A stretch of 64,000 nt of DNA. Source: Syntrophotalea acetylenica. GTDB taxonomy: Bacteria > Desulfobacterota > Desulfuromonadia > Desulfuromonadales > Syntrophotaleaceae. The translations under genes and the position numbers were made by a program. The stretch covers positions 2,784,001 through 2,848,000 of the forward strand of contig NZ_CP015455.1 of NCBI RefSeq assembly GCF_001888165.1, read 5' to 3'. Position 1 is the first letter of the stretch, and every line of letters begins with the position of its first letter. This document shows positions 46,087 to 49,661 of this stretch, one piece after another. The notes under the pieces were generated by a model. The model was not told where the DNA came from. It saw nothing but the letters and a program-made list of their open reading frames with translations, and did not search any database.

Positions 46087-46536
46087 TTATCCGTGGGCGA
46101 GGCGCTCCCTGACCATGTCGCTGACCAGCTTGCCGTCGGCGCGGCCGCGGGTTTCGGCGGAAACGATCTTCATCACCTTGCCCATGTCGCGGGGGCCTGC
46201 GGCTCCGGTCTCGGCCACTGCCCGTTCGATCAGGGAGGCGATTTCCTCAACAGCGAGGGGTGCCGGCAGGAATTCCTGCAGAATGGCCAACTCGGCTTCT
46301 TCCTTTTCGGCCAATTCGGCGCGGCCGCCTTCCCTGTAAAGCTGCACCGACTCCTTGCGCTGTTTGACCAGGGAAGACAGGACACCGACCACCTCTTCGT
46401 CGGCCAGCTCGCCGCGCTGCTCGATCTCGCGGTTTTTGACCGCCGCCAGTACCATGCGCACGGTTGTGAGACGCAGACTGTCCTTGGCCTTCATGGCTGA
46501 TTTCATGGCATCGCTAAGCTGTTGTTTGAGACTCAT
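46087..46536 (-). CDS. yqeY: GatB/YqeY domain protein
   Basis: A 149-residue protein matching the YqeY family: N-terminal 'LKQQLSDAMKSAMKAKDSLRLTTVRMVLAAVKN' and the C-terminal helical GatB-tail domain 'LLQEFLPAPLAVEEIASLIERAV' and 'DMGKVMKIVSAETRGRADGKLVSDMVRERL', which in GatB binds tRNA. Independent role unknown. Often sits beside rpsU-dnaG-rpoD genes, as here. Confidence 0.9.
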   Translation of the reverse strand: MSLKQQLSDAMKSAMKAKDSLRLTTVRMVLAAVKNREIEQRGELADEEVVGVLSSLVKQRKESVQLYREGGRAELAEKEEAELAILQEFLPAPLAVEEIASLIERAVAETGAAGPRDMGKVMKIVSAETRGRADGKLVSDMVRERLAHG

Positions 46537-46632
46537 GCTGACCCACCTTTTATGAAAAACGTCAACGGAAACCGGCAATTTCGGGACCTCGACTCACACA
46601 CCTGCCGCCACGGCCCGCGCGCAAGATGTGTT

Positions 46633-47274
46633 TCACCCCTTGCGGCTGGCCTTTTCCTCGATGCCGGACAGGCCGAACCGCCGCCGCAATTCGGCATAGA
46701 CGCGCTCCGGCGGCAAATCGTAATAACCGAGCAGTACCAGTACGTGAAAAAACAGATCGGCGACTTCGTAAACCACTTCGTCGGCGCTGCCACCCTTGCC
46801 GGCCACCGCGGTCTCGGTGGCTTCCTCGCCGATTTTGCCGAGAATCTTGTCAAGGCCCTTGGCAAACAGGGAAGCCACATAGGACTTCTGCGACGGGTTG
46901 TCGCGTCGCTCCAGCACCACCCGGTAAACCTGCTCCAGGATATCGCCCCGGGGCGCGGCCAGAGAGCCTTGCTGTCCGAAAATCACGGTCTTGAAACAAT
47001 GGCGCGATTCGCCATCCTGCTCCACCGACACCAGCAGGCTGTCACCGGAGCAGCTCAGGCGGATCTCCTTCACCCGCTGGGCGTTGCCGGCATCGGGACC
47101 CACCAGCGCCTTTCTGGAACGCGAGTAGCGATGCAGCAGGCCGGTTTCCAGGCTCAGCCGCAGGGCCTGGTCATTGAGCTGCGAAAGCATCAGCACTTCG
47201 CCGCTGGCGGCGCAGCGCACCACCGCGGGGATGAGTCCTGCGGCATCGTAGGTGATGTTGTTCTGATCGGTCAT
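46633..47274 (-). CDS. hisIE: HisIE: degenerate PR-AMP cyclohydrolase fused to PR-ATP pyrophosphohydrolase
   Basis: A 213-residue fusion. The C-terminal half (about residues 115-213) is a good HisE PR-ATP pyrophosphohydrolase, with '[12 protein letters not shown]' and 'ELADL'-like '[14 protein letters not shown]'. The N-terminal half has the HisI fold ('[32 protein letters not shown]', 'YSRSRKAL', '[21 protein letters not shown]') but the DxDxD metal motif reads SCSGD and the segment with ACHTG is deleted, leaving only HCF. The cyclohydrolase step is therefore probably lost here and a separate HisI should exist elsewhere. Last gene of the his run. Confidence 0.85.
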
Positions 47275-47302
47275 GGTTCTGTCTCCCGGCCGTAGCGCCC
47301 AC

Positions 47303-48070
47303 TTACAGCCGCGCCGCCACGCCGCGCTGCTGCAGATATTCCTTGCATTCGCGGATCGTGTACTCGCGGAAGTGAAAAATACTGGCGGCGAGGGCAGCAC
47401 TGGCACCGCCTTCGGTCAGTCCCTGATGGATATGCTCCAGATTGCCGACGCCCCCGGAGGCGATGACCGGGATACTCACCAGATCGCTGATGCCACGGGT
47501 CAGAGGAATATCGTAGCCGTCCTTGGTGCCGTCCTTGTCCATGGACGTCAGCAGGATTTCGCCGGCGCCGTAAGCCTCCATGCGCATCGCCCACTCCATG
47601 GCATCGATGCCGGTCGGCGTGCGGCCACCATGAATATAGACTTCCCAGCGCTGCGGATCGCTGCCGGCAACGCGTCGGGCATCGATGGCCACCACGATGC
47701 ATTGGGATCCGAAACGCTCTGCCGCCTCCTTGACGAAGGCGGGGTTGTTGACCGCTTCCGTATTGATGGATACCTTGTCGGCCCCGGCGTTGAGCAGGTT
47801 GCGGATATCGTCGATGGTACGGATGCCGCCACCGACGGTCAGGGGCATGAACACCCGCTCCGCGGTGCGCGCCACCACATCGAGAATGATATTGCGCTTG
47901 TCGCTGGAGGCGGTGATGTCGAGAAAGGTCAGTTCGTCGGCGCCCTGGGCATCGTAGGCTTCGGCGGCCTCAACCGGGTCGCCGGCATCGCGCAGTTCGA
48001 GGAACTGCACTCCCTTGACCACCCGCCCGTCCTTGACATCGAGACAGGGGATAATACGTTTCGTCAGCAT
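47303..48070 (-). CDS. hisF: Imidazole glycerol phosphate synthase cyclase subunit
   Basis: A 255-residue (beta/alpha)8 barrel that with HisH makes imidazole glycerol phosphate and AICAR. Catalytic D11 is in '[16 protein letters not shown]' and D130 in the 'CIVVAIDAR' strand. Phosphate-binding loops 'VGGGIRT' and 'ASGGVGN' are present. Downstream of hisA, with a 240-bp gap (48071-48310) in which I see no gene. Confidence 0.97.
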
Positions 48071-48310: not shown

Positions 48311-49042
48311 TCAGGCTTTACCCTTGGTCAGCGCCACGGCTTCGCGCAGATCGAGGCTGCCGGTGTAGAGAGCCTTGCCGGTAATCACGCCGCTCACGCC
48401 GTACTTTTCAATGGTCATCAGGCGCGCGATATCGTCGAGACAGGACACGCCCCCGGATGCGATAACGGGGATCTCAATCGATTCGGCCAGGGCGCGGGTC
48501 GCCTCCAGATTGGGACCGCCCATCATGCCGTCGCGGGAGATATCGGTATAAATGATCGCCTCGACGCCGAAGCCCTCCATCTCCCTGGCCAGTTCGCTGG
48601 CCAGTTTTTCGGTCACGTCGGCCCAGCCGCGCACCGCCACCAAGCCGTCGCGGGCATCGATGCCGACCACAATGTGCCCGGAAAACAGGCGGCAGGCCTC
48701 GCGCACCAGATCCGGGTTTTCCTTGGCGACCGTGCCGAGGATCACCCGATCGATACCGAGCTTCAGGTAGGCCTCGATGGTCGCCAGGTCGCGGATCCCT
48801 CCTCCCAGTTCGGTGGGGATGGAAACCGCGTCGACAATGGCGCGAATAGCGTCACGATTGCGCGGCACGCCGGCAAAAGCGCCGTCGAGATCGACGATGT
48901 GCAGCAATTCGCCGCCCTGCTCCTGCCAGCTGCGGGCCTGGGCGCCGGGATCGTCGCTGTAGACCGTATCCTTCTCCATAAGGCCCTGCTCGAGACGTAC
49001 GCAGCGCCCTTCCTTCAAATCGATAGCCGGGATGACAATCAT
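48311..49042 (-). CDS. hisA: ProFAR isomerase HisA
   Basis: A 243-residue (beta/alpha)8 barrel that performs the Amadori rearrangement of ProFAR. '[20 protein letters not shown]' carries the catalytic Asp8, and '[15 protein letters not shown]' the second Asp near residue 130; phosphate loops 'LGGGIRD' and 'ASGGV' are present. ATG at 49042 shares one base with the hisH stop codon, indicating translational coupling. Confidence 0.96.
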
Positions 49043-49661
49043 TATAACTCTCCGAAGTTTTTGAGGATTTTCAAGCCGACCCGCTGGCTCTTTTCGGGGT
49101 GAAACTGGGTCGCCATGAGGTTGTCCCGCCAGATGGCGGTACAAAAGGTGCGACCGTAGTCGGTGGTTGCGGCAACCACCGAGTCATCCTCGGGCACGAC
49201 ATAATAGGAATGCACGAAATAGACCGACTCGCCGTTTTCGATCCCGTTGAAAATAGGGGCCGGACGGCGGATATCGATCTGGTTCCAGCCCATGTGCGGC
49301 ACCTTGAGCACCTCGCTTCGGCAGCGCATGTCCCCGGGAAGCGCACCACCCGTCCGGGGACGATGTTCAACCCCTTGTGATGGCCGAACTCCTCGCTTTC
49401 GGTAAACAGCAACTGCAGCCCCAGACAGATGCCGAGGAACGGCCGACCGGATTCCACATGCCGCAGAATCGGCTCGACGAAGCCGCCGCTGGTTAATTGG
49501 TCCATGCAATCGCGAAACGCGCCTACGCCGGGCAGCACCAGCCTGTCGGCCCTGGCCACGACCGCCGGATCGTCCGTCACCCGGGCCTCGAAGCCGACCT
49601 TTTCGAAGCCTTTCTGCACGCTGCGCAGATTGCCCATCCCGTAATCGACAATCACAATCAT
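49042..49661 (-). CDS. hisH: Imidazole glycerol phosphate synthase glutaminase subunit (apparent frameshift)
   Basis: The glutaminase partner of HisF, about 206 residues when corrected. The N-terminal frame has '[15 protein letters not shown]' and the nucleophile Cys in '[13 protein letters not shown]'. After 'GRVVRFPG' the reading continues in another frame with '[19 protein letters not shown]', the catalytic His in '[10 protein letters not shown]' and the end 'ILKNFGEL'. One G seems missing in the short G run (C4 at 49332-49335 on the plus strand). Probably a consensus error. Confidence 0.92.

Follow-up and report, generated by a model that had tools for sequence, protein, structure and literature searches.

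A HisIE protein of Syntrophotalea acetylenica with a degenerate HisI half, and a canonical stand-alone HisI in the same genome

The fused hisIE gene is a standard illustration of gene fusion, and to our knowledge the undoing of a gene fusion has rarely been caught half way. The closest described proteins are the fused HisIE enzymes of S. flexneri (6J2L, 6J22), M. truncatula (HISN2, here MtHISN2; 7BGM, 7BGN), and A. baumannii, the stand-alone HisI of M. thermautotrophicus (1ZPS), and stand-alone HisE proteins such as that of C. violaceum (2A7W). Repeated independent hisIE fusions, along with possible splits, have been reported (PMC1963479), and the passages concerned describe no dead half. Searches of an open-access library turned up no description of a HisIE whose HisI half is dead, which is weak evidence of novelty because subscription papers lie mostly outside it. 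In the genome paper of Pelobacter (now Syntrophotalea) carbinolicus (PMC3543383) the words 'hisI' and 'histidine' are absent from the main text, and passages of the CRISPR/hisS paper (PMC2923632) mention the short hisG alone.

We analyzed a hisIE gene in a window of 64,000 nucleotides from the S. acetylenica genome (contig NZ_CP015455.1, positions 2,784,001 to 2,848,000); NCBI taxonomy places Syntrophotalea in Desulfuromonadales, Syntrophotaleaceae. The encoded protein shares with the described HisIE enzymes the domain order, the HisE half, the HisI fold (as predicted), and the operon place, and it is 57–64% identical to 21 canonical HisIE proteins of the same order. Compared with stand-alone HisE it has about 110 extra N-terminal residues, mostly a HisI-like domain, and its residues 111–212 match residues 4–105 of 2A7W. 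The HisI-like half shares its predicted fold with 1ZPS but, unlike the canonical, unfused HisI of its own genome, is degenerate and fused to HisE.

The hisIE gene and the state of its two halves

The minus strand of the window carries hisG (short form), hisD, hisB, hisH, hisA, hisF, and hisIE, then yqeY, cvpA, mutS2, and dnaG, with hisH, mutS2, and dnaG named from their sequence. In HisIE, as in this chain, PRA-CH precedes PRA-PH. The features are listed below in window coordinates.

46633..47274, minus strand: hisIE with a degenerate HisI half (213 aa, ATG at 47274, stop codon counted)
46981..47274, minus strand: HisI-like half, residues 1-98 (PF01502 at residues 29-92, 44.3 bits)
46636..46944, minus strand: HisE half, residues 111-213 (PF01503 at residues 114-199, 64.5 bits)
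47116..47124, minus strand: SRS phosphate-binding motif, residues 51-53, kept (alignment with relatives)
47103..47104, minus strand: gap at residues 57/58, the position of the Trp-Met of WMKGE in relatives (alignment)
47041..47055, minus strand: SCSGD at residues 74-78 where DCDxD is canonical, with Cys75 and Asp78 kept (alignment)
47004..47005, minus strand: gap at residues 90/91, the position of the CHTG segment in relatives (alignment)
46993..46998, minus strand: C93-F94, kept remnant of SCF (alignment)
46813..46827, minus strand: HisE metal site E150-E151-A-T-E154 (invariant, 33/33 rows)
46756..46767, minus strand: HisE metal site E170-V-A-D173, with E170 and D173 (invariant, 33/33 rows)
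47303..48070, minus strand: hisF, directly upstream of hisIE (open reading frame and domain match)
46087..46548, minus strand: yqeY, directly downstream of hisIE (open reading frame and domain match)

An open frame of 257 codons on the plus strand (46522-47295) covers hisIE along its full length in antisense; antisense open frames are common in GC-rich DNA. The window's hisH is split over two overlapping frames (49042-49661), the N-terminal part occupying 49071-49661 and the frame of the C-terminal part ending at 49042, whereas all 12 loci examined in relatives have the gene in a single frame. Either a sequencing error or a broken gene may account for this split, which weakens any claim that the window's strain makes histidine and has no bearing on the HisI half.

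When MtHISN2 residue numbers were transferred to the window protein through sequence alignment, the HisI half was found to have lost the counterparts of Asp125, Asp127, Cys142, His143, Trp107, and Lys109, residues that set canonical HisIE apart from it, and to have kept those of Ser100-Arg101-Ser102, Cys126, Asp129, and Cys149. The Asp125/Asp127/Asp129 metal site reads S74, S76, and D78, and of the three-Cys zinc site with its catalytic His143 the counterparts of Cys142 and His143 are absent, leaving two of three zinc cysteines (C75 and C93). Passages of the MtHISN2 study (PMC8102479) identify Cys126, the Cys inside DCD, as a zinc ligand. Relative to 28 canonical HisIE proteins of the same order, the Trp-Met of WMKGE is gone, its Lys has become Val, and the linker is shorter. 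The first-pass annotation of this stretch had likewise read SCSGD (S74-C75-S76-G77-D78) in place of the Asp metal motif, an absent ACHTG segment (CHTG is missing after residue 90), and a single remaining C-terminal Cys (in C93-F94), and all three readings held up. Sequencing or assembly error, or chance, was rejected as the source of these changes because they recur in separate genomes; in the alignment, SCSGD and the same gaps are shared by all ten members of three genera.

With metal ligands and the catalytic His lost, and with H143E alone leaving no detectable activity in MtHISN2 (passages of PMC8102479), the HisI half very likely lacks cyclohydrolase activity. It passes the Pfam PRA-CH cut-off (44.3 bits against 27; 46.7 in the genome search), and annotation at the Pfam level would therefore call the window protein bifunctional, very probably wrongly. 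The protein misses the NCBIfam models for HisIE (NF002747, 171.4 bits against a cut-off of 187) and for HisI (NF000768, 78.1 against 126).

The HisE half had been described as intact, in agreement with the cut-offs passed for NF001611 (137.6 against 99) and TIGR03188 (95.6 against 42.7), while another HisE model, NF001613, was missed (98.9 against 120). Acidic metal-binding residues in HisE helices 6 and 7 (E150, E151, E154, E170, and D173) are invariant in all 33 aligned rows; we equated them with MtHISN2 ligands by our own mapping, the ligands being taken from passages of PMC8102479. The window gene was the sole PF01503 match in a search of the genome and is thus the genome's only HisE.

A stand-alone HisI and the distribution of the degenerate form

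The first-pass annotation had inferred that a second HisI would be needed elsewhere, and had set beforehand a genome search for a separate hisI, with the finding of no other HisI in a histidine prototroph as the case against it. That search returned two PF01502 matches in the window's genome (3.2 Mb, two contigs): the window gene and a canonical stand-alone HisI at positions 1935109-1935333 of contig C1, minus strand (115.4 bits, with DCDAD and ACHTGNRSCF), 0.9 Mb from the window hisIE. This HisI carries all the residues lost from the window's HisI half, and its presence means that the opposing case does not arise. PR-AMP is very probably hydrolyzed by the stand-alone HisI instead of the HisIE half. 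The stand-alone hisI overlaps a long-form hisG by four bases (L001:554-1803; about 1934.2-1935.4 kb of C1), with ndk following that hisG (gene names assigned from sequence), giving the genome two hisG genes, the short form in the window and the long form beside hisI. In three relatives (G002, G003, and G004) a second hisG was not found, none lying between hisI and ndk, and G011 carries an in-frame TAG in its long hisG. All four genomes have an open hisI, which is retained more firmly than the neighboring hisG.

We surveyed 98 genomes by hand count, reading motifs in 28 of 36 canonical HisIE proteins and classing the others as canonical by score. Canonical HisIE was found in 36 of the 98, each with a single PF01502 match (two, in G088 and G056, are cut by contig ends), and stand-alone HisE in 42 (fragments in G057, G092, and G086 included), 40 of which have HisI. 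Degenerate HisIE was found in 12 genomes, all in the window's family of anaerobes, and ten of these have an intact stand-alone HisI. The eight genomes in which no HisE match was found comprise G001, G013, G027, and G046, which have HisI, and G062, G085, G091, and G097, which have neither. A profile of the degenerate form detected it in 12 of the 14 family genomes, with the HisI half altered in every HisIE found; the same search did not find HisIE in G001 and G013, which are 78% and 86% complete.

In the loci compared (11 family loci, the canonical locus of G069, and the HisE-alone loci of G037, G016, G022, and G078), all three states occupy one and the same place, between hisF and yqeY. One order shows three states of one locus: canonical fused, fused with a very likely dead half, and HisE alone. 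Families f4, f7, and f8 each contain fused and unfused members and the order's stand-alone HisI falls into three tree groups, suggesting that replacement of HisI probably occurred more than once. Within genus g8, the locus of G037 (L169) has HisE alone directly after hisF and its genus-mates G017 and G069 have canonical HisIE; the genome search found no HisI in G037, which is 78% complete. Genus g41 shows a like contrast, with G070 fused and G083 carrying HisE alone.

A sample of 246 genomes spanning the phylum, with a single member of the window's family, contained three with two PF01502 matches: two belong to a single genus of family f25, and the third is the window's genome. Among the best 80 of 576 confirmed matches at named loci, 71 had a HisI-like stretch and nine had none. 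The strict motif pattern was passed by 58 of these 71; 11 failed its last part alone, and inspection by eye shows DCDxD and ACHTG in these, CF being preceded by N, R, or H. The remaining two, L034 and L035, are degenerate, and their sequences are identical to those of family genomes G005 and G009.

Genus g4, represented by G008 and G010, departs from the rest of the family. Its HisI half gave no PF01502 match at E 0.001, SCSGD and CF are lost, and the Cys of SCSGD is gone in both genomes. Pairwise dN/dS was 0.26 for the HisI half against 0.09 for the HisE half, values that are partly saturated, and from these sequences the g4 HisI half is further decayed, as a relic would be. Genome searches did not find an intact second HisI in either genome. 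We rejected G010 as a case of degenerate HisIE without another HisI: the first ~15 residues of a stand-alone hisI lie at the ends of two contigs, C28 and C90 (L176, L180), the gene being cut by the assembly. These contigs differ in upstream sequence and end in nearly identical stretches of ~120-140 bases holding the hisI start, which would reflect either a duplicated gene or a strain mixture. In G008, which is 99% complete and has the run of his genes, no other HisI was found.

Selection, predicted fold and origin

Under a single-omega codon model for ten members of genera g1-g3, the HisI half gave an omega of 0.174, with omega = 1 rejected (2dlnL 256.7), and is under purifying selection; the HisE half gave 0.084. 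A neutral pseudogene domain, for which omega would be near 1, is rejected by this likelihood, with which a relic under folding constraint remains compatible. In two families with canonical HisIE, the HisI half gave 0.067 and 0.079 and the HisE half 0.035 and 0.032. The HisI:HisE ratio of 2.1 in the window's family compares with 1.9 and 2.5 in the canonical families, but both halves are looser in the window's family, so that an argument from this ratio is propped up by the looser HisE half. Six neighboring genes of the same genomes ranged from 0.034 to 0.088 (YqeY fastest at 0.088, then CvpA at 0.084); the HisI half thus evolves faster than every neighbor tested, at about twice the omega of the fastest. 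The stand-alone HisI gave 0.037 (11 family genes). All ten members of the three genera share S51-S53, S74-D78, C93, and F94 without variation, with silent codon changes at every one of these residues except S53 and S76; in genus g4 most of these residues are changed.

AlphaFold2, run with 33 aligned sequences, gave mean pLDDT values of 89-96 per ten residues over residues 11-90, and the single-chain model of the whole window protein had a low pTM of 0.48. The HisI half of this monomer matched 1zps_A in Foldseek (1.3 A over 88 columns, 42% identity) and 1zps_B in VIA-align (Z 15.1, rmsd 3.1, 102 aligned). The HisI fold is predicted with confidence for this half, but the model may lean on the canonical HisIE proteins in its alignment. 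The model of the G008 monomer (pTM 0.44) kept four core strands and lost the strands around residues 49-58, where confidence was low.

Our trees included 28 of 36 canonical HisIE, 12 of 12 degenerate HisIE (10 of 12 in the tree without g4), 24 of 42 stand-alone HisE, and 31 of 32 fetched stand-alone HisI proteins; that of G013, incomplete, unlike the others, and from a genome with 8% contamination, was dropped. The 12 degenerate halves formed one clade (SH-aLRT 100) in a quick tree that raised long-branch warnings. Without genus g4 they nested among the order's canonical HisIE halves, near family f14 (81/94), a placement that fits an origin from HisIE of the order itself. The tree of the HisE half (106 columns) was poorly resolved and did not group the family, and a single clade was not rejected (AU p 0.099).

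Explanations for the retained half, and a parallel in another family

We lean, with modest confidence, towards the explanation that the window protein is a working HisE with a catalytically dead HisI domain kept as a scaffold, and that the stand-alone HisI performs PR-AMP cyclohydrolysis. The family ancestor would have had a canonical operon HisIE together with a stand-alone HisI (with long-form HisG). The stand-alone HisI would have taken over PR-AMP cyclohydrolysis, the HisI half of HisIE would then have lost its metal and substrate residues, and the dead half would have stayed on HisE as a folded and probably dimeric scaffold; its deletion seems to have happened in sister families. In such cells the C-terminal HisE half would convert PR-ATP to PR-AMP, which the stand-alone HisI would then hydrolyze. 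The presence of HisI in the same genome and the lineage-wide pattern point to replacement of the HisI half rather than mere loss. Passages of PMC8102479 regard it as highly improbable that either domain exists as a monomer, so the constraint that remains would be most simply explained by a dimer-forming scaffold. The first-pass annotation had offered a structural or regulatory role for this domain, which purifying selection and the predicted fold fit without proving. The 99%-complete G008 with no other HisI in our searches, and the HisE-half tree without a family grouping, count against this explanation. So do the decay in genus g4, an omega about twice that of the fastest neighbors and above those of canonical HisI halves, and the occurrence in sister families of an unfused HisE at this locus. 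Moreover, the truncated HisE domain of A. baumannii is active without the HisI domain (passages of PMC10242683), so the dead half is not required for HisE chemistry.

Another explanation is a HisI half that has no job and has stayed in place since a fused, misfolding N-terminus would harm HisE, with eventual trimming to HisE alone. Such a relic, which we judge unlikely though worth serious consideration, would account for stand-alone HisE in 42 of 98 genomes at the same place (by synteny for four), for the further decay in genus g4, and for an omega twice that of the fastest neighbors tested; it does not sit well with SRS, SCSGD, and CF remaining invariant in 10 of 10 members across three genera despite silent changes in most codons, or with an omega far below 1, though folding constraint alone might produce such a pattern. 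We regard as improbable the proposal that the dead half builds mixed dimers with the stand-alone HisI, lending it Cys75 and Asp78 for the completion of one active site, tethering HisI to HisE, and restoring PR-AMP channeling once the activities sat in separate genes. In MtHISN2 it is the partner chain that supplies Cys126 and Asp129 to the metal sites (passages of PMC8102479), the window half keeps exactly these two and lacks Asp125, Asp127, Cys142, and His143, and proximity channeling has been described for A. baumannii HisIE (passages of PMC10242683). However, with three of seven residues kept, both trans residues would be among them with a chance of 1 in 7, which makes this docking a lead only; the stand-alone HisI also has every residue for self-pairing, and the Cys is lost in G010 and G008. 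That two zinc Cys and SRS are conserved, the predicted fold kept, and the Pfam cut-off passed might suggest a cyclohydrolase still working with an altered metal site, but the general base His, the third zinc Cys, two of three Asp, the Trp, and the Lys are missing, H143E alone is inactive in MtHISN2 (passages of PMC8102479), and a canonical HisI is present in the same genome, making this very improbable. The degenerate HisIE would be a natural snapshot of fused enzymes separating, a tractable test of a pseudo-enzyme domain turning into a scaffold or docking partner, and a basis for predicting which hisI is essential in the window's family.

A partial parallel is found in HisI-like paralogues of family f25 (L244, L245, L246, and L247, from G239, G099, G305, and G274, respectively), which carry LSC[SGR]GD and CExG..SCF. 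As in the window half, the Asp125 match is Ser, the Cys126 and Asp129 matches are kept, and the catalytic His is lost, here replaced by Glu; unlike the window half, these paralogues are unfused, keep all three zinc Cys, and form a separate tree clade. One origin for them and the degenerate halves of the window's family was neither supported nor rejected (AU p 0.305). Their neighbors, named by eye, are folD-like in genus g55 and priA-like in g179, and in g55 the paralogue is the only PF01502 match found.
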